From Gemmatimonadota bacterium (GTDB lineage Bacteria > Gemmatimonadota > Gemmatimonadetes > Longimicrobiales > Gaopeijiaceae), in contig VYAQ01000359.1 in NCBI GenBank assembly GCA_009844885.1, positions 1 to 32,414 of the forward strand: a DNA stretch of 32,414 bases. The letters run 5' to 3'. Below the pieces are notes generated by a model, which worked only from the letters and a program-made list of their open reading frames with translations, ran no database searches and was not told the DNA's origin. Each line of letters opens with the position of its first letter. Positions within the stretch are counted from its first letter, which is position 1. Both the position numbers and the translations under genes were made by a program. Shown in pieces: positions 44 to 25,693 of the stretch.

Positions 44-1666
44 GTGGTGTTCACCCGACTGTTCGAGAAGATCGAACAGCAGCGGGGTGTGTACGGCGAC
101 CAAGTGTATGACGTGCTGGGTGACTCCCACATCAACACCTCTCTCCAAGAACTCCTGCTCAGGGCCATCACTGCCGACGACGATCCTGCCCATCTCGAAT
201 ACATGCAAGAAGTCATCGAAGGCGACATCGGCAAGCAGCTTGAGAACGTGTTGAAAGAGAGGGCGTTCGTCGGAGGTCTCGCCGACCCGGCGCTCAACGA
301 CAAGATCAAAGAGGACATGGAACGGGCCCGGGCCCGCAAGCTGCAACCGTGGTTTGTCCACGGGTTCTTCTCCGAGGCTCTTCGTCAGTATGGAGGGCGC
401 ATCACCAGTCGGGAGAGGGGCCGGTACGAGATCACCCGCATCCCGGCCTCGGTCCGCTCATTCGCCGATTCCAATCTCGGCCCGGTACACGACCGCTATG
501 AATGGGTCACTTTCGACAAAGCCTTCGTCCAAATCGATGGAGACGACCGGGCCGAGCTGATCTCGCCGGGCACCCCGCTACTCACTGCCGTCATCAACAA
601 GGTGCTCGCCGACCACGAGCACACGTTGTCGCGGGGAGCGACCTTGGCCGACCCCCAAGACCAGTCGACCGAGCCACGCCTTTTGGTCTACCTCGATCAT
701 TCCGTCACCGATGGGCGACAGGTCCACGGGCATCGCCAAGTGGTGTCGCGGCGGTTTCAGTATGTAGAGATCGACCAGCAAGGTAACGCCAAGAACGCTG
801 GTAATGAGCCATATATCGGCTACGCCCCGCTGACTGACGAGGACCGAACGCTGCTCGAAGGCCATCTCGACCTGGACTGGGCCGATCACACTGCTGAGGA
901 GACGGCCAAGGGCTGGGCCATCGAGCACCTGTCTCAGCCGCACTTCGAAGAAATCCACCGTGTCACTGAAGCTCGAGTGGCAAGGGTCAGCGAGGCTGTC
1001 CGAGAACGCCTCCAAGCCGAAATCCACTACTGGGACCAACGAGCCGAGGAGTTGAAGAAACAGGAGCTAGCCGGCCAAAAGCCCCGGATCAATTCCGGTC
1101 GAGCCCGGGCTCGGGCCGACGATTTGGCTACTCGACTGACCCGCCGGCGGCTCGATTTGGACCGAGAAAGCGACCTCCACAACAGCCCGCCAAACATTGT
1201 GGGAGCGGCAATCGTTGTTCCTCAAGGACTCATCGATCAGCTCCGCGGCACACCTCCCGACCCCGAAGAGACTGCCGACAAGATGGAGACCGACCGTCGA
1301 GCCGTTGCCGCCGTCCTAGAAGCCGAGCGAGCCCTCGGCCGCAACCCTGAGGCCCAGGCCCACAGCAATCCCGGCTACGACGTGCTTTCCATCGACCCCG
1401 ACACCGGCACCCACTACTTCATCGAAGTCAAAGGCCACCTTCCCCGCACCACCGAAATCCACATCAGCACCCAGCAGATCAGCAAAGCCAAATCTCTCCC
1501 CGAGCACTGGCGCCTCGCCGTCGTCTCCGTCCCCGACGACCCTGCCGAATCACCCACCGTGCGATACCTAGTCGACCCCTTCCGAGATGTCACCCTCCAC
1601 TTCGCCCAACCCGGCGTACCTCTCACTGTCGCCGATCTTCTGGAAGTCGCCCAAGACCCCTGCTGA
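44..1666 (+). CDS. SNF2-type helicase C-terminal half with DUF3883 domain
   Basis: This 540-residue open frame starts at GTG 44, with a purine-rich AGGGAGGGA directly upstream that could support re-initiation. Residues 1 to about 75 match the end of a helicase C domain (FTRLFEKIEQQRG, then YDVLGD). The middle (about 300-400) is highly charged and helical, probably coiled coil. Residues about 440-520 are a DUF3883 domain, a nuclease-like fold, with a PD-(D/E)XK-like pattern at D446 and E461-V-K463 (motif FIEVKG). The Walker motifs of the helicase would lie upstream of the window. Such helicases co-occur with DUF1156 methylases and DUF499 ATPases, both found further right on the same strand. 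The frame is cut off from its N-terminal part by the TAG at 29-31, so it may be half of a broken gene. The family call is firm; whether it is functional is open. Confidence 0.75.
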   Translation: MVFTRLFEKIEQQRGVYGDQVYDVLGDSHINTSLQELLLRAITADDDPAHLEYMQEVIEGDIGKQLENVLKERAFVGGLADPALNDKIKEDMERARARKLQPWFVHGFFSEALRQYGGRITSRERGRYEITRIPASVRSFADSNLGPVHDRYEWVTFDKAFVQIDGDDRAELISPGTPLLTAVINKVLADHEHTLSRGATLADPQDQSTEPRLLVYLDHSVTDGRQVHGHRQVVSRRFQYVEIDQQGNAKNAGNEPYIGYAPLTDEDRTLLEGHLDLDWADHTAEETAKGWAIEHLSQPHFEEIHRVTEARVARVSEAVRERLQAEIHYWDQRAEELKKQELAGQKPRINSGRARARADDLATRLTRRRLDLDRESDLHNSPPNIVGAAIVVPQGLIDQLRGTPPDPEETADKMETDRRAVAAVLEAERALGRNPEAQAHSNPGYDVLSIDPDTGTHYFIEVKGHLPRTTEIHISTQQISKAKSLPEHWRLAVVSVPDDPAESPTVRYLVDPFRDVTLHFAQPGVPLTVADLLEVAQDPC

Positions 1667-2462: not shown

Positions 2463-2503
2463 CGTGATATTGATTGCTACGATTCGCCTAGGAGGACTCC
2501 GTC

Positions 2504-3757
2504 ATGCTGCTGCGATTCCAGGTCTCCAACCACCGCTCGATCCTCGATCCCGTGGAGCTATCGATGATCGCCGTGGACGACGATCGCCCCGCTACCCGCG
2601 GATTCGAACGTCTATCAGAGCGCGTCCTGACCACCGCTGGCATCTACGGCCCCAATGCGTCAGGCAAGTCCAATGTGCTGGATGCGCTCTATTGGTTGTC
2701 GTATGCAGTGGCTACCTCACTACTAGGAGGAGGGGACTCAATGCATCGGGACCCTCACCGCTTTGGCAAGGGATCGGAAAAGCCCTCAACTTTCGACATG
2801 GACTTCATTGTCGAGGGCATTCGGCATGGGTATCAGCTTGAAGTCGACGACTCTGCCGTGCTGTACGAGAGTCTGTGCAGCTACCCCGAGCAGAGGCGAC
2901 GAATGCTCTTCGAGCGTGAAGGCGATGAGGTCCACTTCCGCCGCGGACTGAGTGGTGCTGGCGGAACCAGGGAACTGCTTACGCCGACCACGCTGGTTCT
3001 CTCGGCTGCCGCTCGTGTCGGCGACCCTGCCATCGAGGTCGCGGGTAGCGCGATCTCCCGGATTGCCGAGATCAATTCCCACGGCTTCAATCGAGGGAGG
3101 CGTTCTTCGCCATTCCTGTTTTTGGCCCGATCTTCGAATACATATTCAATGTTTGAGGACGCAGGTGTTCGCGAGCAGCGGATCTTCAAGGACACGACTC
3201 GTGGCGATGCGGCCATTGAGCTGCTGCGACTGGCCGACCCGGGTATCACAGATTTCGACATCATTGAAGTTGAGGGTCGGGTGACTGGTGCCACCGGTGA
3301 AGAACTGCATCTTCTGCATCACGATGGAGACAGAACCGTACCCTTTTGGCTTGCGGAGGAGTCCGCGGGAACCCGAATGCTGTTCAGCCTGCTAGGTCCG
3401 GCGCTTGATGCGCTCAAGTATGGCCAGGTTCTCCTCTTTGATGAAGCTGATGCCAGCCTGCACCCACGGCTGTCAGCCCGACTCCTCGAATTGTTCCAAG
3501 ACCCGCAGACCAATCCCTTCGGCGCCCAGCTCATCTTGGCCACCCACGACACGTCGCTGCTCAACACGCTGAATCGCGATGAGGTCTGGCTCACCGAGAA
3601 GGGTTCTGATGGCGCCACCCGGCTTACGGCGCTGGCTGAATTCGGCGGTGATCTCGTAAGGAGATCCCTGAACCTCGAGAGGGCCTACCTTCAGGGCCGC
3701 TTTGGAGCCATACCCGAGATCGACCACACCGACGTCCGTCACGCCGTCCACATTTGA
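2504..3757 (+). CDS. AAA/ABC-type ATPase of an RloAB/AbiL-like defence pair
   Basis: A 417-residue P-loop ATPase of the AAA_15/AAA_21 (OLD/RecF/ABC-like) group. The start at ATG 2504 has a strong AGGAGGA seven bases upstream. Walker A is GPNASGKS (49-56), the ABC-signature-like stretch is EESAGTRMLFSLLG (285-298), Walker B is VLLFDEAD (309-316) and the switch His lies in LATHDT (345-350). The gene is followed after 13 bases by an RloB-family gene. This ATPase plus RloB pairing is that of RloAB and of lactococcal AbiL, systems that cause abortive infection; the ATPase is thought to sense phage and control the partner. All expected ATPase motifs are present, so it looks intact. It is probably expressed from its own promoter at the palindrome just upstream. 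Confidence 0.85.
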   Translation: MLLRFQVSNHRSILDPVELSMIAVDDDRPATRGFERLSERVLTTAGIYGPNASGKSNVLDALYWLSYAVATSLLGGGDSMHRDPHRFGKGSEKPSTFDMDFIVEGIRHGYQLEVDDSAVLYESLCSYPEQRRRMLFEREGDEVHFRRGLSGAGGTRELLTPTTLVLSAAARVGDPAIEVAGSAISRIAEINSHGFNRGRRSSPFLFLARSSNTYSMFEDAGVREQRIFKDTTRGDAAIELLRLADPGITDFDIIEVEGRVTGATGEELHLLHHDGDRTVPFWLAEESAGTRMLFSLLGPALDALKYGQVLLFDEADASLHPRLSARLLELFQDPQTNPFGAQLILATHDTSLLNTLNRDEVWLTEKGSDGATRLTALAEFGGDLVRRSLNLERAYLQGRFGAIPEIDHTDVRHAVHI

Positions 3758-3770
3758 GCCTCTGTCCACA

Positions 3771-4430
3771 ATGGCAAGATCAGCAAGCCGCAGGTCGCGG
3801 GAGCAAAGGACGCTTCGGCGCCAGGATCCCCATCGAATTCCCAAACGGACTTTTCTCGTTTTCTGCGAAGGCGAAAGGACGGAGCCGGCTTACCTCAAGG
3901 CGCTGAAACGCGAACCTGAAGTCCGCGACATCGCCTCGGTTGACATCCGCATTCATGACGACTCTCTTGGTTCTGCGCCATTGACCCTGGTCGAAGCTGC
4001 AGCCGATACACGCGCCCGCGCTAGTCAGGAAGAAAGCGAGATTGACGAGGTTTGGTGCCTCTTCGACGTCGAATGGCCCAGGAATCACCCCAACCTAAAA
4101 AAGGCTCGCGATCTTGCTAGAGCGAGCAATGTGAAGGTCGCGGTGTCGAATCCTTGCTTTGAGCTATGGCTTCTACTGCACTTCCAAGACCAGACCGCAT
4201 GGCTCGAGACGGACGCTGCCAAACGTCGGCTCAAGAAGTATGACCCTAGTGATGGCAAAAGCATCGACGGCGCAACCTACGTACCCCGACGCGCCAAGGC
4301 CGCAGACCGCGCCCGCTCACTGGAAAAACGTCACAGAGGCGGTAGAACCAAGTTCCCCAACAACAACCCATCTTCCGGCATGTACCGCTTCCTCGAAGCA
4401 GTTGAGAGTCCTACGGAGGATGCTGGCTAG
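3771..4430 (+). CDS. RloB-family protein (Toprim-like effector)
   Basis: A 219-residue protein, start taken at ATG 3771, 13 bases after the ATPase stop; a longer TTG-start frame from 3702 would overlap the ATPase and adds an unstructured tail, so it was not used. No clear Shine-Dalgarno precedes ATG 3771, which fits translational coupling. RloB hallmarks are present: a basic N-terminus, FLVFCEGERTEPAYLKAL (28-45, acidic E33/E35 of the Toprim-like core), FDVEW (98-102, D99 and E101) and the diagnostic NPCFELWLLLHF (127-138). The usual second acidic motif in this family is closer to D-x-D; here it is D-V-E. By analogy with AbiL and PARIS, the RloB partner is the toxic nuclease-like effector released or activated by the ATPase. 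No transmembrane segment is seen. Confidence 0.85.
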   Translation: MARSASRRSREQRTLRRQDPHRIPKRTFLVFCEGERTEPAYLKALKREPEVRDIASVDIRIHDDSLGSAPLTLVEAAADTRARASQEESEIDEVWCLFDVEWPRNHPNLKKARDLARASNVKVAVSNPCFELWLLLHFQDQTAWLETDAAKRRLKKYDPSDGKSIDGATYVPRRAKAADRARSLEKRHRGGRTKFPNNNPSSGMYRFLEAVESPTEDAG

Positions 4431-4790
4431 GTATCGACCTCCACGGAATTTGCCGATTGCAACACGTCTCCGGTCTTGACTGGCATGGAGAACATTCGGC
4501 CTCCGGAAAGGTCGTGATATGGCCTTGATGATGCAAGTACGGCCTGTGGCAAGGCCGATAAGCAGGGGAAACCCGTTGCAACAAATTGCTCTGGCGGATT
4601 GAACTTTGGGCAGATATGGTGTGCATCACAAAGTACGCGAGCGTAATTACAAGCAGGTTCCAGCCGATGAGCCACCTGAACTCAGTATCGAGAAACAAGG
4701 GCGATTCCTCAGAGGTTGTCTGCTAGCTAGAGGCATCCTTCCTGCAAGGCCGTGGGCATCGTGAGGACACAATCCATCAGGAGCTTGTTG
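4431..4790. other. Intergenic stretch before the SIR2/pAgo operon, no gene seen
   Basis: These 360 bases hold no frame I would call a gene; minus-strand open frames here have no recognisable content. Weak dyads are TACGC-ga-GCGTA at 4634-4645 and CGGCC/GGCCG at 4540-4557. It presumably carries the promoter for the Argonaute operon, but I could not find a convincing -35/-10 pair. Confidence 0.4.
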
Positions 4791-6650
4791 ATGGTTGATC
4801 ACATCTCGTCTGACGACTTTGCTCGTACGTTCGGTCAGAGGACTGGTCAGCTCGCCTGGCTTCTAGGCGCAGGTACGTCGGCGTCCGCGGGAGTACCGAC
4901 GGGGCAAGACATGATCAATGACTTCAAGGTTCGCTTGTTTAGCTCCGACGTGGGACTGCCACGCCAAGAGGTGGACATCAGCGATCCAATTTGGGATCAG
5001 CAGGTTAATTCCCATTTTGACGGGGCTTGCGGCTTTCCGCCTCTGGGAGCCCCAGACGAATATGCGGCAGCATTCGAGGCTGCGTTTCCCTCCGCCAGCG
5101 ACCGACGCTCGTACATCGACGATGCAGTAAAGCGAGGATCCCCCTCGTATGGGCATCGTGTACTCGCTTCACTGATTTCCAACGGCTTTGTTCGATGCCT
5201 GTTCACTACGAACTTCGATCAGCTTGTGGAACGGGCCACGGTTATCACCGATGAAATGCTTCCTGTGGACCAGCAGGTACACCTCACGGTTAGCGCACTC
5301 GACTCGGTTGACCGGGGGGAGCGCTGTATGAGCGAGGACGATTGGCCCGTGCTGGTGAAGCTGCATGGCGACTATCAGTCTGAGCACCTAAAGAACACTG
5401 CCGAAGAACTCCAAGTACAGGACGAACGGCTTAGAACGGTCTTTGTTCAAGCCCTGAGTCGATTCGGGCTTGTCGTTGTGGGCTACAGCGGTCGAGACGA
5501 TTCGGTCATGGATGCTCTAGATGAGGTCGTGGCCATACAGGGAGCCATGCCCGCTGGCCTGTGGTGGGTGTCTCGACAAGGCGAGCAACTCCTCCCAAGG
5601 GTCCAAGAGATGCTGCAGCAAGCAGAGGAATCGGGCATCGAGGTTCACATTGTCGATTCCGAGAACTTCGATGAGCTTGCCGGCGACCTAGAGGGGGAAG
5701 TCTCTTTGGAGGCCCCGCTTCTCGAGCACATACGCGAGGTACGACCACGACCCGTCGTTGAGCCAGTAACTCTTCCGACGAAGAGATACGCGACCTTTCC
5801 GGCCGTTCGGTGTTCCGCCCTCGAAGTGCTTGAGCTGCCATGCGAAGCCAGAGAGATCGCCGTGAATAGGCCGCTAACAGCAGTGGAGGCTCGCAAACTC
5901 GTGAAGGATGCAAGAGTGTGGGCGACTGTGGCATCACGAGGGAGGACGCTGGTCGCTTTCGGAGCGGATCGGGACCTCGAACAGGCATTCGCATCTGTTG
6001 GAGGCGAACTGCGTGGAAGAGTGCCAATCAACCCGGCACAAGACTCGATCGACCGCGGCCTCGTCTACGAGGCGTTGACAAGAGCAATTGCACGACATAG
6101 ACCATTGCGCCCAGTCTTGCGGGGTCGAGGACACGCGGTTGTCGTTCAGCCAGCATCCGATAGGTACCCCGATCACGTTGTGCGGCGCCACGAGGAGCAG
6201 TTGGATGCCCTGCGACGAGCATATGGGACAGCACTTACAGGGTCCGTGCCGAGCATCCAACAGCCCTTTGCTGAAGCGGCGCAAGTACGCCTTGAATACT
6301 GGAATGGCACATGGTGGCTGGTGTACGAGCCCTTCACTTGGGTAGATCTTCCTCGGGCTGACGAAGGTGAAGCGGCCATAGATGAATTGTCCCGGTCTTT
6401 GACCTCTGCCCCTGGTGGTTCTAGTTCAAAATTCGTCGCAGCAGACTGGAGGCGAGAACGATGGGCGCAACGCTACAACCCAAAGTGGAACAAGATCATT
6501 GCTGCTTGGGCCAAGCTCATGGCTCCCGCATCGGAAACTGAATTGTTGACCCACTACTTCGAAAGTGAAGGCATTTGCGGGGGTTTTCGGCTCTCGTGGA
6601 CTACAGCCTGGAGCAGCCCGGTCCGAGCTTCGCCATGGAGTGGAGCATGA
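4791..6650 (+). CDS. SIR2-APAZ NADase subunit of a short-pAgo (SPARSA-type) system
   Basis: A 619-residue protein. ATG 4791 is preferred over the in-frame GTG 4752 because AGGAG lies seven bases before it. The N-terminal SIR2 domain (about 1-300) has the nucleotide-binding GAGTSASAG (26-34), TTNFDQLVE with N141, KLHGDY with H192 and VVVGYSGRDDSV (228-239). N141 and H192 match the catalytic pair of defence SIR2 NADases. Residues about 330-600 form an APAZ domain, related to the N-terminal lobe of long Argonautes; the tail RWAQRYNPKWNKIIAAWAKL (557-576) is typical. SIR2-APAZ proteins pair with short Argonautes and, when the guide-loaded complex finds invader DNA, deplete NAD and kill or arrest the cell. 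The Argonaute gene begins in the stop codon (ATGA overlap), so the two are co-translated and probably form a heterodimer. Confidence 0.9.
   Translation: MVDHISSDDFARTFGQRTGQLAWLLGAGTSASAGVPTGQDMINDFKVRLFSSDVGLPRQEVDISDPIWDQQVNSHFDGACGFPPLGAPDEYAAAFEAAFPSASDRRSYIDDAVKRGSPSYGHRVLASLISNGFVRCLFTTNFDQLVERATVITDEMLPVDQQVHLTVSALDSVDRGERCMSEDDWPVLVKLHGDYQSEHLKNTAEELQVQDERLRTVFVQALSRFGLVVVGYSGRDDSVMDALDEVVAIQGAMPAGLWWVSRQGEQLLPRVQEMLQQAEESGIEVHIVDSENFDELAGDLEGEVSLEAPLLEHIREVRPRPVVEPVTLPTKRYATFPAVRCSALEVLELPCEAREIAVNRPLTAVEARKLVKDARVWATVASRGRTLVAFGADRDLEQAFASVGGELRGRVPINPAQDSIDRGLVYEALTRAIARHRPLRPVLRGRGHAVVVQPASDRYPDHVVRRHEEQLDALRRAYGTALTGSVPSIQQPFAEAAQVRLEYWNGTWWLVYEPFTWVDLPRADEGEAAIDELSRSLTSAPGGSSSKFVAADWRRERWAQRYNPKWNKIIAAWAKLMAPASETELLTHYFESEGICGGFRLSWTTAWSSPVRASPWSGA
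6637..6649 (+). promoter_or_regulatory. Ribosome binding site that fixes the pAgo start
   Basis: GGAG at 6637-6640 lies six bases before ATG 6647, whose last bases form the TGA stop (6648-6650) of the SIR2-APAZ gene. This favours ATG 6647 over the upstream in-frame TTG at 6575 and ATG at 6635. Confidence 0.65.
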
Positions 6651-8098
6651 CCGCCGCAGTTCGAGCAGGTCAGTTGGCTCCGTACACGCCACTGGCAGAG
6701 CCGCTCTTATCGTTTTCGTCAGCAAATCCATCTGATACCGATACTCATCCACTCAGAGGTCTCGTGACGCATGGGCCCTATAGCAAGAACTCTCTGACAG
6801 CTTTCTCCGACTCAGTGCGAGTCGCGATCGTCGGCCCGGAATCCGGCAGAGAGGGGCGCAGGAAGATTCTCGGAAATCTCAGGCAGACACTGCGGCCCTC
6901 GGACCGTCGCGACTATGTCCCTGAGTTTCCTGGATTTGAGCCGCTCTTTGATGTCCCACTTGTCCCAGCCCCAGAGTGCGCACTGTTGGACTGGCCATCT
7001 CGCCTAGATGAACTCGGGAACGGATCTCCCCATGAGCGAGTCCGACGGGCAATATCGCAGAATCTCCGGCAACTGGCCGATGTTAGGGACCAGTTTGATG
7101 TTGCGGTTGTCCACTTGCCAGACGGTTGGGAACCGGGACTCCATGGTGCTGGCTTCGACGCTCACGATGAGCTAAAGGCGATTGCCGCTGAGCTCTCGAT
7201 GCCTACGCAAGTCATCAACGACCGCACATTTGCTTTTCCTTATGCGGCATCACTCTCGTGGCGGCTGGCCATCGCACTCTATGTCAAAGCTGGAGGGACG
7301 CCTTGGCGACTAGCTCCACTTCCAGGGATCCCCGCAGACAGTGCCTACATTGGGCTGGCCTATGCTCTTCGGGGCAACCCACAGGAAGCCAGGTTCGTAA
7401 CCTGCTGTTCCCAGTTGTTTGATGCGGACGGCGGTGGTATGCAGTTCGTGGCATACGACGCCCGAGACCCACTCGACAGCTCTGAAGATGCCCGGCGGAA
7501 TCCATACCTCAGCCGATCAGACATGCGGGCTGTGTTGGCAAGAAGTCTGGACCTGTATAGACGCCGCAACGGTGGCCAAGTGCCCCGGCGAGTGGCTGTG
7601 CACAAGACGACGGATTTCAAGGACGATGAGCTTGCTGGCGTTTCCGATGCACTGGCCGCTGTAGAAGAAGTCGAGTGTGTGAAGGTGACAACAAACGTGA
7701 ACTGGCGGGGAGTTTGGCTTCAGGAATCGGAGCGAGAGGGGCAAATAAGCAAGCCAGACGGATATCCCGTGCATCGCGGGACGATGGTCCCCCTTTCAGG
7801 AACTTCAGCACTGCTTTGGGTAGCAGGAAATGCCCCCTCTGTTGCGAAACAAGGGAGCGGTTTCTTCCAAGGCGGCAAGAGCATTCCCTCGCCGCTAGTC
7901 CTTACCAGACAAATGGGTCGTGGACCCCTGGAAGTCGTCGCATCTGAACTTCTAGCTCTCACAAAGATGGACTGGAACAACGACGCGTTGTACGACCCAG
8001 TCCCGGTCACGATTCGCTATTCGCAACGCCTGGCCCGAATCATCGCAAATGTGCCGGATCTTCCGCGGAGCGTTTACCCCTATCGGATGTTCATGTGA
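6647..8098 (+). CDS. Short prokaryotic Argonaute (MID-PIWI), catalytically inactive
   Basis: A 483-residue protein in the usual size range of short pAgos, with only MID and PIWI lobes. The N-terminal segment PLRGLVTHGPYS (35-46) resembles the entry to the MID lobe. The 5-prime guide-binding pocket is visible as HDELKAIA (K177), PTQVI (Q188) and YVKAGGTPW (K214). The PIWI fold follows: AYIGLAYAL (233-241), FVTCCSQLFDADGGG, and RVAVHKTTDFKDDEL (315-329), ending in PVPVTIRYSQRLARI. The first catalytic Asp of slicing Argonautes, in an I-G-x-D context, is A238 here, and the HK-T-T segment lacks the third, so it should bind but not cut targets. It acts with the upstream SIR2-APAZ protein, sensing invader nucleic acid through a small guide and switching on the NADase. 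The ATGA overlap implies one operon. Confidence 0.9.
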   Translation: MTAAVRAGQLAPYTPLAEPLLSFSSANPSDTDTHPLRGLVTHGPYSKNSLTAFSDSVRVAIVGPESGREGRRKILGNLRQTLRPSDRRDYVPEFPGFEPLFDVPLVPAPECALLDWPSRLDELGNGSPHERVRRAISQNLRQLADVRDQFDVAVVHLPDGWEPGLHGAGFDAHDELKAIAAELSMPTQVINDRTFAFPYAASLSWRLAIALYVKAGGTPWRLAPLPGIPADSAYIGLAYALRGNPQEARFVTCCSQLFDADGGGMQFVAYDARDPLDSSEDARRNPYLSRSDMRAVLARSLDLYRRRNGGQVPRRVAVHKTTDFKDDELAGVSDALAAVEEVECVKVTTNVNWRGVWLQESEREGQISKPDGYPVHRGTMVPLSGTSALLWVAGNAPSVAKQGSGFFQGGKSIPSPLVLTRQMGRGPLEVVASELLALTKMDWNNDALYDPVPVTIRYSQRLARIIANVPDLPRSVYPYRMFM

Positions 8099-8279
8099 GG
8101 CCTCTGTGCAAGCAAAAGTCACTCTTGCTGACTCGGCGAGATTGGCCACCAACCGAGTGAGCTTGCCCCTATCTGTGGAGATCTGGAGTTTGAGGCCAGG
8201 GGCGGTGGAGCGTGGAGCGGGGCAGTTTTGTGGACTTGTCGGTTGTCGCCGCGGTATTCGTAAGGGCCCTGCGGTGAAA

Positions 8280-11200
8280 CTATGTCGGTAGGCCTCGGCG
8301 GATGGTCTCTGCTTCGCGGTCGTGAAGACCAGCCTCGTACTCGTAGCCGCGGGCCAGCTGCCTGAAGATGGCTGCTGTACGGGGCCACTCCTGGAAGCGG
8401 CGGCTCTGCTCCTTGTAGCTCTCGGCGAGATGGCGCTCTTGATCTCCGCCGGCTGTCAAGGAGCGGGACGTGACGCCGCGTTGGTTATGAATGGCCATGA
8501 GGAGGCCTCGCTCAATGCTGTCGCATTGCAGTCGTTCCAGCAGGTTGCGGACAGCAAGTCCAGGCCACTCGCCGTCGGGGTCTTCAGGAGATGCGGCGAG
8601 GGCGGCACCGATCATTTCGTCGCCAATGGTAGATCGGTCACTTGCCGCCAAGAGTCCACGAGCGCTGTCAATCCAAACTTGGAGCGAATCACCATCTAGC
8701 GCGCCGTCATCGTCGAGTCCTGGAACGAACTGCGAGGCTGGCCAGCTACGCAATAGTCGGTAAGCGCTGAGCGCCATCTGTTGTTGGGCTTCAGTCACCG
8801 GAGGCCTCTCATCCGGCGTAGCGGTTGCTGGCTTGAAGGCCCACTCGACTAGCTGCGAGAAGAGTTCGGGGTCACAAGCCAGCTCCCGGTAGAGGTTTGG
8901 AGCGCTGAAATCTGGGTCGTGGTGCAGGAGCGGGTGGCATTGCCACTCAAGAACGGCGACTCGACTAGTGCCAATATGGTCCCGGTGCATGTCGAGCACC
9001 TTCAATAGCGAGGCCAATCGCCAGTAGGTCATGTCGATATCTTCGGCCTCGGTGCTAGGTTGTTTGATCCACTGTTCAAGCCACTCCACAGCTTCGTCGG
9101 CGAAATCCGATTCAGATTCATGGGTGGTCGAGCGGATCGACAGCAGTTTCCCCGCCAATTCGAGGCGTCCCGCTTTTCGCAGTCGGCGACACACCTCGAG
9201 GAGTTGACTCAACTCCTGTGGAATCCCGAGGTCGTAGTAGCCCACCCGACTCCAGTACTCGGTCGCAACCTCCTCACCCCAAGCGTCTACCCGCGTCCAA
9301 GGCAATTCCACTGGAGGTGGCGAGCGCAGGACGTCAGCGGCAACTTGGGGAGACACTTGATTTTCGGAGAGAAGCTCTTCCAGTCCTTCCCATTGCAGTT
9401 CGGTGAACCGGTGGTCGAAATAGCCCAAGGCGACTTCCGCGACCGCCCCGGATGCGGTTTCCATGGACCTGAGAATGTCCTTGTCAAGGGCCGAGTTGTA
9501 GCTAGCAAGCGCCGAGCCAACTCGACGAGGCTCATCCACCGACTCGGCGAAGCCGAAAACCGCCTCGAGTCCGCCGTCGGCAAAAACTGCCTCTATTGCT
9601 TCCGCCTGCTTTGGCCGTAGCGCCGCTTGGAACTCCTCATACCCACCTGCCGCCTCGACACCATCTAGATACAGCAGGCCCGATGAGAACAGGTCGCCAT
9701 AGGAGATAGCGGGCGCAGCCGGACAAAGAAAATCCTGAACCTGCTCCAGCGCTTCCAATTCAGTTTCGGCTAGCGCCCAGTTGGCTTCACTGTGGCGGCG
9801 GTGACGACCCACGAGGTCTCGCAGTAGTGGCCATATCCTCGATTTGAACGCCTCATCGGGGTTAGCGGCAGCCAGCCTGCTGATTGCCGAGTTTGCCTTG
9901 TGGCGCGGCCCGTCAGGCAGATCGGCGAAGCGTCCAATCAGGGATGCCCAGCGCTCGGAGTCCTCACCGGCATCCTCAACGAGCATGTTTGCGATTGCGG
10001 TGGTTGTGTAGACGTATTCTCGCTGTGTGATAACCGGCTGAGCTGGCCTCCAGTCGCGGTATCGAGGCATTTCGCTCGGGTGCTGGACACCGTGGGGTTC
10101 TGGCAGCATCGACAGCATCAACGTCCAAGCGACATTTGTATGGGACTTCCGCAGCATGCGGACTGCTGCGAGACGATTAGCAGCATCTGCTGACGTATTG
10201 GGCAGCCATGGACACATGATTGAAGCGAGGCTTTCATCCGGTCGGTTCGTGTACCGGCTACCGGGGTCGATCTCGGCTAGCCGGGCGAGCACATCAGAGG
10301 TGGCCAAGAGGTGCTCGGGCGACCATGCCATGACTTCCAACGCATTCAAAATGCGAAAGTGGGGCGACGAAGAGTTAAACCCCAACCAGTCGGAGTCGCC
10401 ATCTGTGAACATTGCTCGCGCGAAAACGTGCGACTCAGCGAGGCAGGTACGCAGGGCTTCCAGTACGGCTTCGGGCGCGGCCTCAGCGAGAAGGGGTAAT
10501 GAGTCGGAAATCGCAGTCCAGGTTCTAGGGGTTGCGTCGTCCATTGCTGATCTGAGTAATCGTCGAATGATGCCCTCAGCCATTCCCGAGCTCGAAGCAG
10601 CGGCCCCGCCCGCCGCCGGCTTGCTGCCAGCCAGTGCAAGGGTTGTTGCTACTCCCTGTTTGAGCTGAGACGAGTACTTCGCCTGGACTCCCTTGATCTG
10701 GGCACTGAGGACCTCCTCACTGGACAGTTCTCGCAGTGGGTCGGCACCGGTTAGCACTTCGTGGGCGATTTCCCCGAAATCCGAGTTATCGCTGGAAGAA
10801 AGCTGATCGCGCAACAGCATCCAAGTGTCAGCTGGTGACACCGCATGAACCAGTTCACTGGTCGTAGTCATGGGTGCATCGCCGAGATCAAACTGGCGCA
10901 GCGCCTCGGCAACCGCATCGGCTGGATGGCCAGTGAAACGCTCCACGACCTCGCGATCGCCTTTGCGGCTTTCGTTCCAGCCGCCGAGCAGCAGGCTCCG
11001 TCTCAGTGTCTTGTCGATCTGCCCTTTCGCCCATTCGGGAGTGTGCAAGGCGGGGTCGGCACTTAGATGCCTTCTAAGTGCCATCAGGCTCATCCGCGCC
11101 AAACCGCCAAGTTGGTGTGCTACATGAAGCTCCACTCGATTGTCTTGGAATCGTTGGGCTACTAGTCCTGAGTCGACTGCGTTGAGAACAATCTCAGCTT

Positions 11201-12689
11201 GAGTGTTGCCTGGGACCGGCACGATCATCAGATGCGAACTCCCTGCGGGCAGATGTTCAGCGAATTCTGCCGACGGCACGACCACTGTCAGCGGAGATGC
11301 TGCCTGGGTGTCCCTCGCATTGCCCGAGAGTGCTTCCCCAGCAAAAAGCCGACGTGCGTCATCATGGGCCTCCACATACAGCACATCACCAAACGGTGAG
11401 TCCGAAGTGCCGCCTGCCACGAGCGCAGCCGAAAGAAATGCCAGAATCTCGTCGCGCTGGACACGGCCTCCAACGGTCACCACCCCGCGACCCTGTCGGC
11501 AGCGGTCACGCAGGTCTTCCGCGGCCTGTTCGCGTCCTGCTAGTACAAACCCTTCGTCGAGGGGTGTCCTTGTCGATTCCAACCACTTCGACCACCACGA
11601 CGAGAGCAGGCCAATTCCCTCCACCGGAGCTCCCATCTGATCGCGCATCCACACCGTGGTGGCGGGCGCGCATTCCAGCCATTCCTCCAAATTGTCGACA
11701 TTCAGAGCCCCTACCTGCCGGAAGTCTCCTCTTGTCGTGCGATCCTGCTTAAATTCTCGTGCTTTGGTCCACGGGGCGCAGACCACGGCCACATACGACA
11801 TATCGGATCGTTCATCGGGCGGTGTCTCGGCGACCCGTTTCTCGTAGTCGTCGCCAGCTTTCTTGTGCGAGCCGTTCTGCTTGGTTGACAACTCCCAAAC
11901 CGACTGACCGGCAGGCACGTACCGATTACCTCGAGCGCATCGCACAATGCCGTCCCATCCGGGCGAATTCACCGCGGTGCCTCCAGGCATATCGAGCCAC
12001 TCAGCTGATGGCTCGGTCTCGGCAATGAGGCTGCGCACCAAGCGCGGCAGCGCCTGCTCTGAACCGCCCGCATTCGCCCACCCCAGTAGGTCGTCCCGAG
12101 ATACCCGCAGGGACTGAGGAACTAAGGGGACGAGCGGAATCGGAGGAATCAGTGCATTAGCGAGTTCCCGTGCTATCTCTTGATCCTCGGCAGGTCCGAG
12201 TGCCGTCAGTCCGCTGCCGCTCAGCCCTTCGGCGATCCGTCCGAGATCACGGACCCTGTCCGTAGCGATGGGACATTGAACCGCAAACTCCTGAAGGCTC
12301 TCCCCGGCAGCTACCGCCGCTCGCAATTCGGCAATCTCTGAGTGGGCGCGAGCAAAGGCCTCTCGGAGTTCATTGGTGGCCACCGCCGCAAGCTCTCCAA
12401 CCAGAGATGCATCACCGCGCAGTCGCACTTCTTCGACCAAATGGCGGAGCCAGTTCCGCCTCACCACATCGTCTGCCATCTCATCGAACACGCTGAGCCG
12501 CTTGCCAGCTTCAGCCAAGAGCAGTGCCCTCGAGTCGCCGCCGTTTGAGGCGGATAGGCTGCGCAGCCCCTCGACCCATGCCTGCTCGAATTCGTAGTGA
12601 TCCTTGGCATCTGCGATGCGTTCCAGCGCGGAGTTGACTATCTCCTGTGTCGGTTCGACCGAGGGGTTCGGCGGGGAAGTGGCAGTCAT
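8280..12689 (-). CDS. Very large protein with PD-(D/E)XK nuclease-like domain and helical C-terminal region
   Basis: A 1469-residue protein starting at ATG 12689, overlapping the stop of the preceding gene by four bases (ATGA). Residues 1-180 are mostly helical. Residues about 225-350 resemble a restriction-endonuclease-like fold: NSPGWDGIVR (D246), QSVWELSTKQ (E266), then KKAGDDYEKR (K276/K277), and CAPWTK. The lysine is displaced from the canonical E-x-K place. Residues about 378-500 (FVLAGR, then VVTVGGRVQRDEILAFL) occupy the position of a P-loop domain but lack the G-x-x-x-x-G-K-[ST] loop, so ATP binding is doubtful. The remaining 950 residues look alpha-helical and repeat-like, possibly a sensor. 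Large proteins of this build occur in defence islands; no activity is known to me. It probably works with the 138-aa protein encoded first in the operon. Confidence 0.7.
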   Translation of the reverse strand: MTATSPPNPSVEPTQEIVNSALERIADAKDHYEFEQAWVEGLRSLSASNGGDSRALLLAEAGKRLSVFDEMADDVVRRNWLRHLVEEVRLRGDASLVGELAAVATNELREAFARAHSEIAELRAAVAAGESLQEFAVQCPIATDRVRDLGRIAEGLSGSGLTALGPAEDQEIARELANALIPPIPLVPLVPQSLRVSRDDLLGWANAGGSEQALPRLVRSLIAETEPSAEWLDMPGGTAVNSPGWDGIVRCARGNRYVPAGQSVWELSTKQNGSHKKAGDDYEKRVAETPPDERSDMSYVAVVCAPWTKAREFKQDRTTRGDFRQVGALNVDNLEEWLECAPATTVWMRDQMGAPVEGIGLLSSWWSKWLESTRTPLDEGFVLAGREQAAEDLRDRCRQGRGVVTVGGRVQRDEILAFLSAALVAGGTSDSPFGDVLYVEAHDDARRLFAGEALSGNARDTQAASPLTVVVPSAEFAEHLPAGSSHLMIVPVPGNTQAEIVLNAVDSGLVAQRFQDNRVELHVAHQLGGLARMSLMALRRHLSADPALHTPEWAKGQIDKTLRRSLLLGGWNESRKGDREVVERFTGHPADAVAEALRQFDLGDAPMTTTSELVHAVSPADTWMLLRDQLSSSDNSDFGEIAHEVLTGADPLRELSSEEVLSAQIKGVQAKYSSQLKQGVATTLALAGSKPAAGGAAASSSGMAEGIIRRLLRSAMDDATPRTWTAISDSLPLLAEAAPEAVLEALRTCLAESHVFARAMFTDGDSDWLGFNSSSPHFRILNALEVMAWSPEHLLATSDVLARLAEIDPGSRYTNRPDESLASIMCPWLPNTSADAANRLAAVRMLRKSHTNVAWTLMLSMLPEPHGVQHPSEMPRYRDWRPAQPVITQREYVYTTTAIANMLVEDAGEDSERWASLIGRFADLPDGPRHKANSAISRLAAANPDEAFKSRIWPLLRDLVGRHRRHSEANWALAETELEALEQVQDFLCPAAPAISYGDLFSSGLLYLDGVEAAGGYEEFQAALRPKQAEAIEAVFADGGLEAVFGFAESVDEPRRVGSALASYNSALDKDILRSMETASGAVAEVALGYFDHRFTELQWEGLEELLSENQVSPQVAADVLRSPPPVELPWTRVDAWGEEVATEYWSRVGYYDLGIPQELSQLLEVCRRLRKAGRLELAGKLLSIRSTTHESESDFADEAVEWLEQWIKQPSTEAEDIDMTYWRLASLLKVLDMHRDHIGTSRVAVLEWQCHPLLHHDPDFSAPNLYRELACDPELFSQLVEWAFKPATATPDERPPVTEAQQQMALSAYRLLRSWPASQFVPGLDDDGALDGDSLQVWIDSARGLLAASDRSTIGDEMIGAALAASPEDPDGEWPGLAVRNLLERLQCDSIERGLLMAIHNQRGVTSRSLTAGGDQERHLAESYKEQSRRFQEWPRTAAIFRQLARGYEYEAGLHDREAETIRRGLPT

Positions 12690-13102
12690 GACGCTCCAAA
12701 ATCGTACCTGCGAATTGCACCCGAACGGACACGGATTCCAGCGACCTCGAACGCTTGCTGGGCAACCTCAAGGCTTGCAGTGGCTGGACGGTAGTGGCCG
12801 CTCATGTTGTCGAGAGCCGACACAACAAGCACCCCATCTTCGGCCACGACTTCAAATTCGCCGGCGGCTTGCACCGGGTCACCGTTAGCGAGCACCGCAT
12901 GGGAGATGTGCTCAACGCCCACTTGCCGCTTCGACGCCAGCAGCCGGCCGCCCGCTACGACATAGATCATCCTTTGACCCTCGGCCGCCAAGACGTCGAA
13001 CGCCGTACTGGGAATCTCGGCAGGCGTGAGGTCGACTCGGCGAGCCGTCTCCAACTCTCGCTGGAGCAGTGACGGCAATCGGTTGTAGTACGGAGTAGAC
13101 AA
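12686..13102 (-). CDS. 138-aa protein with SGHYRP motif, partner of the large nuclease-like protein
   Basis: First gene of a minus-strand pair; its TGA overlaps the ATG of the 1469-aa gene. The start is TTG 13102, the only plausible start before residue 45, with GAGGA a rather long 13 bases upstream. Residues 44-138 form a compact domain: RMIYVVAGGRLLASK, then HISHAVLANGDPVQAAGEFE (65-84), VLVVSALDN and SGHYRP (101-106), then a helix ASLEVAQQAFEVAGI. A similar pattern (His-containing strand, G-x-P-V-x-A-A-G-E, then S-G-H-Y-R-P) recurs in the C-terminal parts of many bacterial toxin- or effector-like proteins, but I do not know its activity. Here it stands alone without a secretion signal. It could be a toxin moiety, an antitoxin or a regulator of the large protein. 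Confidence 0.65.
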   Translation of the reverse strand: MSTPYYNRLPSLLQRELETARRVDLTPAEIPSTAFDVLAAEGQRMIYVVAGGRLLASKRQVGVEHISHAVLANGDPVQAAGEFEVVAEDGVLVVSALDNMSGHYRPATASLEVAQQAFEVAGIRVRSGAIRRYDFGAS

Positions 13103-13141
13103 GGTGTCGATTCTGTCCTCATAGCCACTCGATTCACTCGT

Positions 13142-13191
13142 ATTCTACAGTACAGAAAATATATTGAAATCACATTAGAATTGCTTATCAG
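13142..13191. promoter_or_regulatory. AT-rich divergent promoter region
   Basis: Between the minus-strand pair and the DUF1156 gene, a plus-strand promoter candidate has TTGAAA at 13164-13169, a 16-base spacer and TATCAG at 13186-13191, giving a leader of about 55 bases before GTG 13252. On the minus strand TAGAAT (13147 to 13142) is a possible -10. An imperfect dyad TTCT/AGAA spans 13143-13157. Confidence 0.45.
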
Positions 13192-13251
13192 GTGCCGTAG
13201 CTCCAGTCAGCGCAGTGAGCTAGTCGGTCAAGTTGGCTACCGTGACCGGTC

Positions 13252-15996
13252 GTGGCAGGTGAGGCGTATCGGCCGAAGCTGATTGAGGTGGCGTTGCCGT
13301 TGGCGGCGATTAATGTGGAGGCGGCGCGGGAGAAGTCGATTCGGCACGGGCATCCGTCCACATTGCACTTGTGGTGGGCTCGGCGGCCGTTGGCAGCGGC
13401 TCGTGCGGTGATTTGGGCGTCGCTGGTGGATGACCCTTCGGGGGATGAGTCGTTGACCCCGTATGAGCAAGAAGATGAGCGGCAACGGCTGTTCGGGATT
13501 CTTGAGCGACTGGTGAAGTGGGAGAACTCCAATGACCCAGAGGTACTGGCTGAGGCGCGAGCGGAGATCGAACGGTGTTTTCCGGAGGGGCCGCCGCCGA
13601 TTCTCGATCCGTTTGCCGGTGGTGGGGCGATTCCATTGGAGGCACAGCGACTTGGATTGAAGGCTCTAGCAGGTGATCTGAATCCGGTGGCGGTGTTGAT
13701 CAACAAGGCGATGATCGAGATTCCGCCGCGCTTTGCTGGCCTGCCCCCAGTGCATCCTGACATAGACAAGACGCTTACGACATGGGAGCGGGGGCAAGGG
13801 CTGGCGGCGGACGTGGAGGCATACGGGCGTTGGATGCGAGAAGAAGCCGAGCGACGCATTGGGCACCTCTACCCGGATGCAACTGGTCCCAACGGTGAGA
13901 GGCTCACACCTATTGCTTGGATTTGGGCTCGGACGGTGGAGTCGCCCGATCCCAGCTGGTCGGGGCATGTGCCGTTGGTGGCGTCATGGACTCTTGCCAA
14001 TAGACCGGGAAAGCCCAAGGTCTGGGTCGAGCCGGTAATCGACAGGGAAACCCAGAACATCAGCTACGAGATTCGTGAGGGCGGCGAACCGGCATACGAA
14101 AGGACCGTGAACCGAGGCAACGGCACCTGCATTGCAACTGGCGCAGCGGTGTCCGGGGACTACATCAAGTCTGAAAGCTGTGCAGGACGTATGGGACAGC
14201 AATTGATGGGGGTAGTAGCGGAGAGCTCAGTTGGTAGGAGCTACTGCAGTGCCGCTGAGGATGACGTCAGTTCGGCGGGGAATGTGAATTCAATTGAGGA
14301 ACCAAGCAGCGGTGTAGCGCTTGACCCCAGAAATGTCTGGATCACCACATATGGAATTGACGAGTGGTGGAAGCTTTTTACCCAGAGACAGCTACTGGCG
14401 CTGACCACGTTCTCTGATCTTCTTGCAGAGGTAGCCAGCCGAGTAGCAAGGGATGCCGCCGCAACTGGGATGGCTGACGATACCGAGCGGCTTCGCGACG
14501 GTGGTCGCGGGGCAGCGGCATATTCGGACGCGTTGGTCACGTATCTGGCATTTGCTGTCGATAGGAGTGCTGACTACTGGTCAACAATCTGTACCTGGGC
14601 CAATTCAGGTGGTTTCATTAGAAACACTTTTGCGCGTCAAGCGATCCCGATGACCTGGGACTTTGCGGAGTGCAATCCATTCTCTGACTCCACAGGTAAT
14701 TGGATGTCGATGATTGGATGGATCGTCAAGGCAATTTCGCATACGCCAGCATCTCTACCAACGGGCGAAGTCATTCAGCGAGATGCCCGGGCACGCGTCA
14801 GAGAGTCCGAAGGGGCTGGAATATCAACGGATCCTCCCTACTACGACAACGTCTCCTACGCCGACCTTTCGGATTTCTTCTATGTCTGGCTACGTAGAAA
14901 CCTCTCGGAGGTGTGGCCCGACGAGTGCTCCACCCTCCTCTCTCCCAAGGCAGAGGAACTTATCGCCAACAGCTATAGGGCTGGTTCGAGGGATCAGGCA
15001 GAGAAGCACTTTGAGTCGGGGATGGCCGAATTCATGAACCATGTCGTTGAGAGCCAGGCAACTGACATTCCTGCCACGGTCTACTACGCGTACAAGGCGA
15101 CCGAGTCGAAAGAAGGAGATATAAGGACAACAGGCTGGGACACATTTCTTCAAGCTGTGCTTGATGCAGGTTTACAAATCAACGCCACATGGCCTATTCG
15201 GACCGAGAGGCCAGGAAGGATGCTCTCAGTCGGCACAAACGCATTGGCCTCCTCGATTGTGCTGGCATGCAGGCCCCGAGCTCCATCGGCCTCGCTTGCC
15301 ACTCGGGGGGAGTTCATTGCCGCTCTCCGTAAGGAGCTTCCCGATGCCGTGCGCATTCTCCAAACCGGGAATATCGCCCCAGTGGACATGGCCCAGTCGA
15401 CAATCGGGCCGGGCATCAAGGTTTTCTCGCGATATGCCAAAGTCGTGGAGGCAGATGGGTCGTCGATGCCCGTATCGGCGGCGCTGGCGATCATCAATGA
15501 TGTGCTGGGTGAAGTGCTCGATGGCGAGGAAGCGGAGTTGGATCGTGACACACGGTTCGCCCTCACCTGGTTCTCAGAACATGGTTACAACTCCGGTCCA
15601 GCAGGAGATGCCGACAGCGTCGCAAACGCCAAGAACACATCTCTGGCAGGGATCGAAGAATCAGGAGTAGGCGTGGCTCGGGCTGGCAAGTTCCGACTGT
15701 ATGAGCGGTCAGAACTTGCTGAGGGTTGGCTGCCGACTACAGACCCTCGCCTCACGGTGTGGGAGGCGCTCCAATATCTGATCGCAGCATTGGAGCGGTC
15801 GGAGTCAGAGGCAGCGGAGCTCTTGAACGCTCTCGGGGGCTACAGCGAGCGGGTTCGCCAGCTTGCTTATCTTCTGTATCAAAAGTCCAACGACAAGGGC
15901 TGGGCAGCAGAAGCCGGGGCCTATAACGGCCTCATCACCGCCTGGCCCAGCCTCCAGGCCAGCGCTGGAGACCCAGTCCAAGAATCCATGCTGTAG
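13252..15996 (+). CDS. DUF1156 family DNA adenine methyltransferase-like protein
   Basis: A 914-residue protein starting at GTG 13252. The N-terminus carries the DUF1156 signature: KLIEVALPLAAINVEAARE and KSIRHGHPSTLHLWWARRPL (28-47). Motif I of an S-adenosylmethionine methyltransferase is ILDPFAGGGAIPLEA (117-131) and motif IV is TDPPYYDNVSYADLSDFFY (526-544), the DPPY of N6-adenine methylases. Between them are the family segments AGRMGQQLMGVVAE and FARQAIPMTWDFAECNPFSD. The motif order (I before IV) and the large middle insert fit this family. DUF1156 methylases are known to be encoded with DUF499 ATPases and SNF2-type helicases in restriction-like defence systems, presumably marking self DNA. 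Both partners are in this window on the same strand, about 11.6 kb upstream and 4.5 kb downstream. The gene looks intact. Confidence 0.88.
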   Translation: MAGEAYRPKLIEVALPLAAINVEAAREKSIRHGHPSTLHLWWARRPLAAARAVIWASLVDDPSGDESLTPYEQEDERQRLFGILERLVKWENSNDPEVLAEARAEIERCFPEGPPPILDPFAGGGAIPLEAQRLGLKALAGDLNPVAVLINKAMIEIPPRFAGLPPVHPDIDKTLTTWERGQGLAADVEAYGRWMREEAERRIGHLYPDATGPNGERLTPIAWIWARTVESPDPSWSGHVPLVASWTLANRPGKPKVWVEPVIDRETQNISYEIREGGEPAYERTVNRGNGTCIATGAAVSGDYIKSESCAGRMGQQLMGVVAESSVGRSYCSAAEDDVSSAGNVNSIEEPSSGVALDPRNVWITTYGIDEWWKLFTQRQLLALTTFSDLLAEVASRVARDAAATGMADDTERLRDGGRGAAAYSDALVTYLAFAVDRSADYWSTICTWANSGGFIRNTFARQAIPMTWDFAECNPFSDSTGNWMSMIGWIVKAISHTPASLPTGEVIQRDARARVRESEGAGISTDPPYYDNVSYADLSDFFYVWLRRNLSEVWPDECSTLLSPKAEELIANSYRAGSRDQAEKHFESGMAEFMNHVVESQATDIPATVYYAYKATESKEGDIRTTGWDTFLQAVLDAGLQINATWPIRTERPGRMLSVGTNALASSIVLACRPRAPSASLATRGEFIAALRKELPDAVRILQTGNIAPVDMAQSTIGPGIKVFSRYAKVVEADGSSMPVSAALAIINDVLGEVLDGEEAELDRDTRFALTWFSEHGYNSGPAGDADSVANAKNTSLAGIEESGVGVARAGKFRLYERSELAEGWLPTTDPRLTVWEALQYLIAALERSESEAAELLNALGGYSERVRQLAYLLYQKSNDKGWAAEAGAYNGLITAWPSLQASAGDPVQESML

Positions 15997-20331: not shown

Positions 20332-20470
20332 TGTAAGGATATGCGGCTGAACGGCAAATGGGGTTGGCCAATGCTGGACGGGGTGCCCACAGCAAGCTCC
20401 GAACACACGCTCTGCCATCCTCTCATGGCATTGTTGGGGCCATGAGCACGCCCGACAAGGAGCGACGCCG

Positions 20471-23710
<3,240 letters not shown>

Positions 23711-23714
23711 AAGT

Positions 23715-24146: not shown

Positions 24147-24241
24147 TAGTTGAACTCATTTGCAAAAGAGGAGTCCATCTGCTTTCACGGATCAATTGGT
24201 TGCCTTGAATCCCAACCTCCGATGGCAAAGCTGGCTTAAGG

Positions 24242-25460: not shown

Positions 25461-25693
25461 CTCAAGTAGTTGGGCCCTGCCTTCATCGCATGAATGATTC
25501 TAGGGGCTTCATCCGTTCTCGCGATTCCTACCTCCAGCATGCGACCGCTGGAGTCAGCTCCTATGAACATCAATAGATCGTCCATTTGGACGATGCGAAT
25601 AGCGTTCCGACAGGCGTGGAGCGCATCGTCTTCCGAAATCCCGTGCCGCCGCGCGCTGGCAGCGAATCGCAGTTGGGTGAAATCGAAATACAT
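25457..25693 (-). CDS. Small toxin-like protein (BrnT-like pattern)
   Basis: A 78-residue protein starting at ATG 25693. It has FTQLRFAASARRHGISEDDA (5-24), LHACRNAIRIV, LLMFIGADSSGRMLEVGIA and PRIIHAMKAGPNYL. The order of an R-H-G-I-S-x-x-D helix, a G-x-D-x-x-G-R-x-L-E-V strand pair and a final I-H-A-M strand is common in small actinobacterial toxin-like proteins that resemble BrnT RNases. It is followed with a four-base overlap by an HTH-like gene, the usual toxin-first arrangement of such pairs. A very AT-rich stretch (25694-25714) directly before the start probably holds the -10 box and implies a very short leader. Cell target and activity are inferred only. Confidence 0.65.
   Translation of the reverse strand: MYFDFTQLRFAASARRHGISEDDALHACRNAIRIVQMDDLLMFIGADSSGRMLEVGIARTDEAPRIIHAMKAGPNYLR

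Follow-up and report, generated by a model that had tools for sequence, protein, structure and literature searches.

Several defence systems pair a short prokaryotic Argonaute (pAgo) with an APAZ partner protein that bears an effector domain, as in SPARTA (TIR-APAZ) and SPARDA (nuclease-APAZ). The closest described relative of the locus examined here is GsSPARSA of Geobacter sulfurreducens (PDB 8in8, 8jkz and 8jl0). Relevant to the setting of this locus is Hma, which is named in PMC8565338 with a remark on its frequent association with Septu, is described as a Type-1 (DUF499-centred) BREX-related system with auxiliary nucleases or nuclease backups (PMC12839542), and is known to hold embedded defence genes, termed HEC for Hma-embedded candidates (PMC11411939, PMC12255303, PMC12111858 and PMC12988326, citing Payne 2024). 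Embedding in Type I restriction-modification loci is described for TgvAB of Vibrio cholerae and DarTG2 of enteropathogenic Escherichia coli (PMC11411939, PMC12255303). Here we analyse the entire contig VYAQ01000359.1 of assembly GCA_009844885.1, 32,414 bases in length (the window), which holds a two-gene short Argonaute/SIR2-APAZ (SPARSA) pair. The pair is very likely a complete SPARSA that lies between hmaA and hmaB as cargo, forms a self-contained module and works independently of Hma. Hma embedding is already published, and SPARSA in Hma is a new instance for which no priority is claimed. We found no report of this combination in the open literature (the preprint and most subscription papers lay outside the search), the literature on nested cargo yielded no match, and the words argonaute and sir2 are absent from the main text of PMC12839542.

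The pair consists of a gene for a SIR2-APAZ effector of 619 amino acids (4791..6650, forward strand), identified by Pfam, PADLOC, PDB matches and a predicted model, and a gene for a short pAgo of MID-PIWI architecture with 483 amino acids (6647..8098, forward strand), identified by PADLOC, by the GsAgo chain 8in8_C and by residue alignment. A previous reading made from the letters of this DNA alone (the sequence-only reading) had proposed a complete SPARSA-type system of two coupled genes, each with its own ribosome binding site. Both open reading frames (ORFs) are indeed uninterrupted and share an ATGA at 6647..6650, and on the same strand a Shine-Dalgarno-like GGAG lies 7 nucleotides ahead of the ATG at 4791 (4780..4783) and another 6 nucleotides ahead of the ATG at 6647 (6637..6640). 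The longest ORF in the first frame begins at 4752 (632 amino acids), upstream of the start given here, and an alternative in-frame ATG at 6635, 12 bases 5′ of 6647, opens an Ago ORF of 487 amino acids. PADLOC, the GsSPARSA chains, the NADase dyad and the predicted fold all concur with this identification.

Both domains that had been proposed for the upstream protein were recovered. Pfam SIR2_2 matches at 7.5e-16, with a second Pfam match from the scan at E ≤ 0.1 falling below its own cut-off. The PADLOC profile Aga_SIR2-PNTD1-PNTD2 matches at 1.8e-190 and spans residues 27-621 of the 632-residue ORF. Among PDB sequences at E ≤ 0.001, three forms of GsSir2 alone match (8jkz/8in8, 2.3e-62). From the model and from GsSir2, the approximate layout is a SIR2 NADase domain at residues 1-310, a linker at 311-340 and APAZ at 341-619. 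The putative catalytic residues are N141 within a TTNFD motif (codon 5211..5213, forward strand) and H192 within KLHGD (codon 5364..5366, forward strand), which align with the catalytic N142 and H186 of GsSir2 and are kept in 79 of the 80 rows of an alignment comprising the window, 78 loci and GsSir2, the last row being a gap; loci L004 and L007 yielded no SIR2-APAZ. The same 79 of 80, again with one gap, holds for each of F142, D143, Y232, S233, R235 and D236, which correspond to GsSir2 F143, D144, Y226, S227, R229 and D230, and the NAD-contacting F293 (GsSir2 F287) is present in 79 rows with one Ile. The GsSir2 mutants H186A, N142A, D144A, F143A, Y226A and F287A are inactive, and Ala mutants of R30, S38 and E262 are still active (PMC10781750); the latter three positions are A31, Q39 and L268 in the window.

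An AlphaFold2 model of the SIR2-APAZ protein, built with 23 sequences, has a mean predicted local distance difference test score (pLDDT) of 80.9 and a predicted template modelling score of 0.49. The top eight PDB matches in a fold search with this model are all GsSPARSA chains. Ranks 1-3, which are nearly complete chains, have E values of 1e-38 to 1e-39, template modelling (TM) scores of 0.43-0.48 and root-mean-square deviations of 22-24, their low TM scores probably arising because the relative placement of the two halves is not settled by the model. Ranks 4-5 match at E of about 1e-28, and ranks 6-8 (8in8_B, 8k87_B and 8y7z_A, each of approximately 255 residues) have TM scores by target length of 0.73-0.76, which together with the PADLOC profile places APAZ in this protein. 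In 8in8, APAZ is the sole visible part of the SIR2-APAZ protein (PMC10474274). The PDB also includes a tetrameric SPARSA complex with guide RNA and single-stranded DNA (8y80), whereas PMC10474274 reports no higher-order SPARSA assembly; the active form of SPARSA appears unsettled.

For the downstream protein, a Pfam scan at E ≤ 0.1 returned nothing, yet the match to MID/PIWI-type profiles expected from the sequence-only reading was found with PADLOC pAgo_I (2.6e-195) and with GsAgo chain 8in8_C (1.8e-102, residues 11-487 of the 487-residue ORF), the best match in the PDB. The remaining PDB matches are nine sequences that we take to be short pAgos, at 1e-22 to 1e-28, and three that are presumably long Argonautes, at about 1e-7. 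In an alignment of 82 rows, the proposed 5′-phosphate pocket residues K177, Q188 and K214 fall on GsAgo K170, Q181 and K207 and do not vary in any row, nor do H173 of the same pocket (GsAgo H166) and N191. The Ala that had been read at the first slicing Asp is A238 by alignment, this being the tetrad position compared; the column holds Ala in 79 rows and Ser in three, and GsAgo has S228. GsAgo R190 orients guide base 2 (PMC10474274), and R190 and N195 both touch this base (PMC10781750, PMC10474274). Their positions are occupied in the window by F197 (Phe in 80 of 82 rows) and S202 (Ser in 75 of 82). Therefore, GsSPARSA is atypical at these positions, and its 5′-AU preference should not be assumed here. 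Four relatives of the Ago, 58-60% identical, lie on viral contigs. Membership in SPARSA is supported on the features that can be judged from sequence, with the slicer tetrad compared at its first position, and as a system the pair is an ordinary SPARSA.

By analogy with GsSPARSA, for which guided NAD+ depletion is supported by published work, this is the most likely activity of the locus. A single Argonaute-like clamp, built from the short pAgo together with the APAZ half of the partner protein, would hold a 5′-phosphorylated RNA guide, and once this guide pairs with complementary single-stranded DNA from a plasmid or phage, the SIR2 domain would be freed. The Asn-His dyad of the freed domain would then destroy NAD+, and the infected cell would stop growing or die before the invader spreads. 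SPARSA would constitute a second, suicidal layer that is independent of the methylation-based restriction exerted by Hma.

What sets this pair apart is its location, which the sequence-only reading did not catch: its SPARSA call was correct, and it missed the nesting within Hma together with three other cargo modules. All three genes of the Type-1 BREX-related Hma core (hmaA helicase, in Hma often with a C-terminal PD-(D/E)XK domain, hmaB N6-methyltransferase with DUF1156, and hmaC DUF499 ATPase) are present and in order, and the full arrangement runs hmaA 3′ part, AbiLi-RloB, SPARSA, a gene for a 1469-residue protein with a 138-residue ORF, hmaB, a DSR1-like gene and hmaC. To look for the same arrangement elsewhere, 80 of the 136 Ago relatives found were kept, with up to 6 kb of flank and on many short contigs; the HmaA profile search matched 14 of 14 control genomes, presumably via the helicase domain, and near-full-length matches alone were used. 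The order hmaA, SPARSA, hmaB, hmaC recurs in four of the kept loci (L002, L003, L005 and L055), and L004 was recognized as a fifth with longer flank, giving six nested loci in total: the window and genomes G394 to G398 (L002 belongs to G394, L003 to G395). In all six, SPARSA runs in the same direction as hmaA and hmaB. The remaining 75 of the 80 kept loci lack a convincing Hma homologue within the flanks examined; 74 gave no Hma match there at E ≤ 1e-5, and the Hma neighbour of L027 was discounted, its HmaA match being 33% over just 91 amino acids. The Ago search was also rerun in the class of G394, and the HmaB search in the family of G394. This Ago proved rare in the class: of 395 genomes drawn around G394, six match at all and G394 alone exceeds 63% identity. 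An earlier search in the class of the filed genome (G000) was misleading, the contig being apparently foreign to G000.

In this Acidimicrobiia Hma subfamily, defined here as loci whose HmaB is at least 70% identical to that of the window, the gap between hmaA and hmaB serves repeatedly as a cargo slot. The Hma loci were picked by best Hma matches rather than at random, each count requires hmaA and hmaB on one contig, Hma loci from the filed genome's class serve only in the background set of other Hma loci, and two of the loci (L144 and L145) are closely related to each other. A length filter excluded L235 (gap approximately 4.3 kb) and L236, which have truncated hmaB, and L221, L224 and L234 have no hmaA on the contig. 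An hmaA-hmaB gap longer than 3 kb is present in 11 of 14 subfamily loci versus 1 of 15 others, where the sole case is the second fragment of a broken hmaB. One longer than 1 kb is present in 12 of 14 versus 7 of 15; therefore, other Hma loci accept smaller inserts as well. The hmaB-hmaC gap offers no such contrast (more than 3 kb in 2 of 13 subfamily loci versus 3 of 18 others). Genes matched by PADLOC, or homologues of such window genes, occupy the hmaA-hmaB gap in 12 of the 14 loci. SPARSA is found there in six loci and AbiL or pieces of it in the window, L142, L220, L222, L223 and L225; the gap also holds Avs2 in L142, AbiU with a DSR1-like C-terminal part in L153, PDC-S19, a PDC-S23-like Fic protein and HEC-09 in L219, and a weak AbiJ match in L146. 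It is empty in L150 (15 bp) and L152 (122 bp). Against a slot devoted purely to defence, 15 of the 30 gap ORFs screened with PADLOC have no match at the thresholds used, although some may not be genes. In L220 (8810-11595), a class II short pAgo (PADLOC, 1.8e-162) is followed by a helical nuclease of DpnII-MboI type (Pfam, 8.4e-49); judged by its profile matches, this is a second Argonaute system in the slot, unrelated to SPARSA. In L223 (7029-10513), the gap carries a C5 cytosine methyltransferase beside an HATPase-type protein with a weak REase_II match, a modification module nested within another modification system.

The strongest competitor to an independent module is that Hma and SPARSA form one coupled system in which SPARSA is the suicide arm of Hma, an arrangement that we regard as unlikely. 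Coupling would account for the constant slot and strand, and also for the Ago tree: on the best tree, the six nested Agos form one clade requiring one change (support 92/67, recovered in 90% of 200 bootstrap trees), compared with a mean of 5.9 changes when nesting labels are shuffled. The closest non-nested relatives, L006 and L007 (71%), lie on a short contig and at a contig start. Coupling would likewise fit the way in which Ago, SIR2-APAZ, HmaA and HmaC have diverged in parallel, their identities all separating the window, G394, G395 and G396 (the last without SIR2-APAZ) from G397 and G398, a split that HmaB gives less clearly, and the end of the Ago gene approximately 110 bp ahead of hmaB homology in G394 and G395. 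The two host groups are 77-78% identical in rpoB. G397 and G398 are 99% identical in rpoB, 81% in Ago and 87% in HmaA; therefore, either the locus evolves more quickly than rpoB or it is exchanged more readily. If the systems are coupled at all, SPARSA might be fed by fragments from the HmaA helicase-nuclease or be triggered when Hma is inhibited, routes to which we give little chance.

Several observations speak against coupling. In G396 (L004:5939-7305), nearly all of SIR2-APAZ and the N-terminus of Ago are deleted, such that window positions 4862-6805 have no counterpart, and in G394 (L002:4085-6004) SIR2-APAZ is split into two ORFs, which could be a sequencing error; hmaA, hmaB and hmaC are nonetheless open in both genomes. 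Closely related Hma loci without SPARSA (L150, L152, L153, L219, L220, L222, L223 and L225), the 75 SPARSA loci lacking a convincing Hma homologue, and the opposite-strand gene that separates ago from hmaB in the window point the same way. Strict coupling ranks second because of the SPARSA losses and the Hma loci without SPARSA. That Hma persists where SPARSA has been lost speaks for an independent cargo module, as does the different cargo, or none, at other loci of the subfamily, and the relation between the two systems is most likely a shared location rather than shared machinery. A more elaborate proposal, which we put forward as a long shot, is that Hma-nested SPARSA is a coupled two-stage unit older than the split of the two Acidimicrobiia lineages: Hma would restrict first, the HmaA helicase-nuclease would supply or expose single-stranded nucleic acid, and SPARSA would detect it and deplete NAD+ if restriction fails, with the class II short pAgo in the slot of G806 as a second, convergent guided suicide arm.

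It is considerably less likely still that the pair is decaying cargo, functionless in this genome. Although two of the six nested relatives no longer carry an uninterrupted SIR2-APAZ, which is lost in one and split in the other, both frames of the window are open with catalytic and pocket residues in place, and the ratio of nonsynonymous to synonymous substitution rates (dN/dS) is low. For the window Ago compared with L002-L004 it is 0.08-0.09, and L003, the nearest relative in which neither gene is interrupted, gives 0.091 (Ago) and 0.163 (SIR2-APAZ). Over all comparisons, which include more distant pairs, Ago values are 0.04-0.10 in 12 of 15 pairs, with 0.26 for the near-identical L002 and L003 and two pairs saturated; SIR2-APAZ values are 0.14-0.16 in two of six pairs, the other four being saturated at synonymous sites. 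This signature of purifying selection points to a functional pair, in keeping with the earlier description of it as intact. It is scarcely credible that misassembly joined unrelated defence loci into a chimera and so produced the nesting: the contig does appear to be mis-binned and its assembly deserves caution, but the separately assembled G396 is colinear with the window over 1-1796, 2472-4861, 6806-15953 and 20466-23720, and hmaA, SPARSA, hmaB and hmaC are repeated in that order in G394, G395, G397 and G398.

The reading of the pair as a complete and independent SPARSA module must also bear some contrary points. SIR2-APAZ is lost or split in a third of the nested loci (2/6), and the branch of the nested clade itself is without strong support (92/67). 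Nested cases may have been missed, given the number of relatives kept, the length of flank and the short contigs. The comparison protein GsAgo is very distant, on an end branch of 8.9 changes per column, and with F197 and S202 in place of the contacts to guide base 2, the guide preference may differ from that of GsSPARSA.

The contig is probably mis-binned, and its host appears to be a member of the Acidimicrobiia rather than the filed genome. The sequence-only reading had named an actinobacterial lineage, and for the contig this is borne out by the flank beyond hmaC, which is colinear with Acidimicrobiia metagenome-assembled genomes (MAGs). The proteins encoded at 28902-29639, 29509-30345 and 30396-31298 have counterparts in colinear ORFs of G394, with identities of 94%, 74% and 97%, and of G395, with 93%, 75% and 96%, both genomes being titled Acidimicrobiia; 20 other genomes of the filed genus contain nothing more than 34% identical to the protein from 30396-31298. 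A flank protein with domains of mycothiol-isomerase type and, also in the flank, a weak match to DUF3159 fit an actinobacterial host. The tetranucleotide profile of 24000-32414 correlates at 0.92, 0.91 and 0.90 with the flanks of G394-G396, versus 0.73 with the contig pool of the filed genome. Against mis-binning, the first 8.1 kb correlates at 0.78 with that pool versus 0.74 with G394. Test contigs of the filed genome, most of which are pool members, reach 0.92-0.96 in five of six cases and 0.88 in the other; therefore, the first 8.1 kb fits neither host, as is common for defence genes. The rpoB of the filed genome is 52-54% identical to those of these Acidimicrobiia (best segment, approximately 630-644 residues) and 79-98% identical to 18 of 20 genus mates, two having no match; a 16S gene was not found in the filed genome. 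Horizontal transfer of the segment is a less likely alternative to mis-binning, and the genome label of the contig should not be trusted.

The remaining genes of the window belong to Hma or to its cargo. The 3′ part of hmaA (44..1666, forward strand) encodes helicase sequence with a C-terminal D-x-E-x-K nuclease-like motif and matches PADLOC HmaA (3.1e-126) at profile positions 631-1171; it is 90% identical to the full-length HmaA of L143 at the amino acid level and is present as a 3′ part alone because the contig starts inside the gene. In the slot that follows, AbiLi, an OLD-like ATPase (2504..3757, forward strand; PADLOC, 1.9e-87), precedes its RloB/AbiLii partner (3702..4430, forward strand; Pfam RloB, 6.8e-38), whose real start is probably 3′ of 3702. 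AbiL also adjoins SPARSA, in divergent orientation, in another MAG, of the Acidimicrobiaceae, whose examined flanks contain no Hma gene (L008:1986-5947); therefore, the AbiL-SPARSA neighbourhood recurs. In L006 (7056-8285) and L007 (1229-2587), a common gene lies immediately 3′ of the Ago, with MITFEEHGSQLVLTYE in both. Beyond the Ago of the window, on the reverse strand, lie the gene for the 1469-residue protein, of unassigned family (8280..12689), and upstream of it the 138-residue ORF (12686..13102). The larger protein recurs in the hmaA-hmaB slot at 81% identity in L142, 73% in L236 and 55% in L153, and the small ORF adjoins it at 80-81% in L142 and L236. The larger protein gave no match in Pfam or NCBIfam, its peptide patterns gave none in viral contigs, and a structure prediction of its first 533 residues from two sequences reached a pLDDT of 42.3. 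The two genes are a candidate for an unknown defence pair.

The DNA methyltransferase gene hmaB (13252..15996, forward strand) matches PADLOC HmaB at E = 0 and Pfam DUF1156 at 8.2e-27, and hmaC (20471..23710, forward strand) encodes a DUF499 ATPase with an N-terminal Swt1-like HEPN domain (PADLOC HmaC, 7.9e-280; Pfam HEPN_Swt1, 8.8e-23), in which a simple Walker-A pattern had no match. Between them lies a DSR1-like gene for a SIR2-DUF4020 protein (16846..20550, reverse strand, start codon uncertain; PADLOC Dsr1, 2.6e-56), which matches NCBIfam Dsr1 at 1.8e-68 with 231 bits, below the 1400-bit cut-off. DSR1-like genes occupy this gap in the window, L221 and L224, a remnant is present in L225, and two small ORFs that accompany the gene are conserved between the window and L221 (85-90%). 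In L226 and L229, whose hmaB genes are more distant, DSR1-like matches likewise lie next to hmaB.

Taken alone, this SPARSA adds little beyond a divergent, probably functional Acidimicrobiia homologue. Its setting is of greater interest, in that a guided NADase and a second, unrelated short pAgo use the same gap of a modification-based system, where the neighbouring cargo turns over and the effector is occasionally lost. The loci form a natural series (SPARSA, broken SPARSA, other cargo and empty) with which to ask whether nested defences are co-located or cooperating.

Among known systems, GsSPARSA shares with the pair the combination of SIR2-APAZ with a MID-PIWI Ago that lacks the first slicer Asp, as well as the catalytic dyad, most NAD-contact residues and the 5′-phosphate pocket. 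It differs in its distant sequence and in R190 and N195, which are F197 and S202 here and Phe and Ser in most relatives, and no nested setting is mentioned for it in the accessible portions of PMC10781750 and PMC10474274. SPARTA and SPARDA also join a short pAgo to an APAZ partner with an effector; assignment of the pair to either was rejected because the effector domain here is SIR2 (Pfam), and short pAgos in the PDB other than GsAgo are far weaker matches (1e-22 to 1e-28 versus 1.8e-102). The loci of TgvAB and DarTG2 likewise place one defence system between the genes of another, modification-based one, with Hma in place of hsd as the carrier here and a putative guide-directed NADase as the cargo. 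With Hma and its embedded candidates, the window and five other genomes share three ordered core genes with defence genes between them, and differ in that the embedded system is SPARSA.

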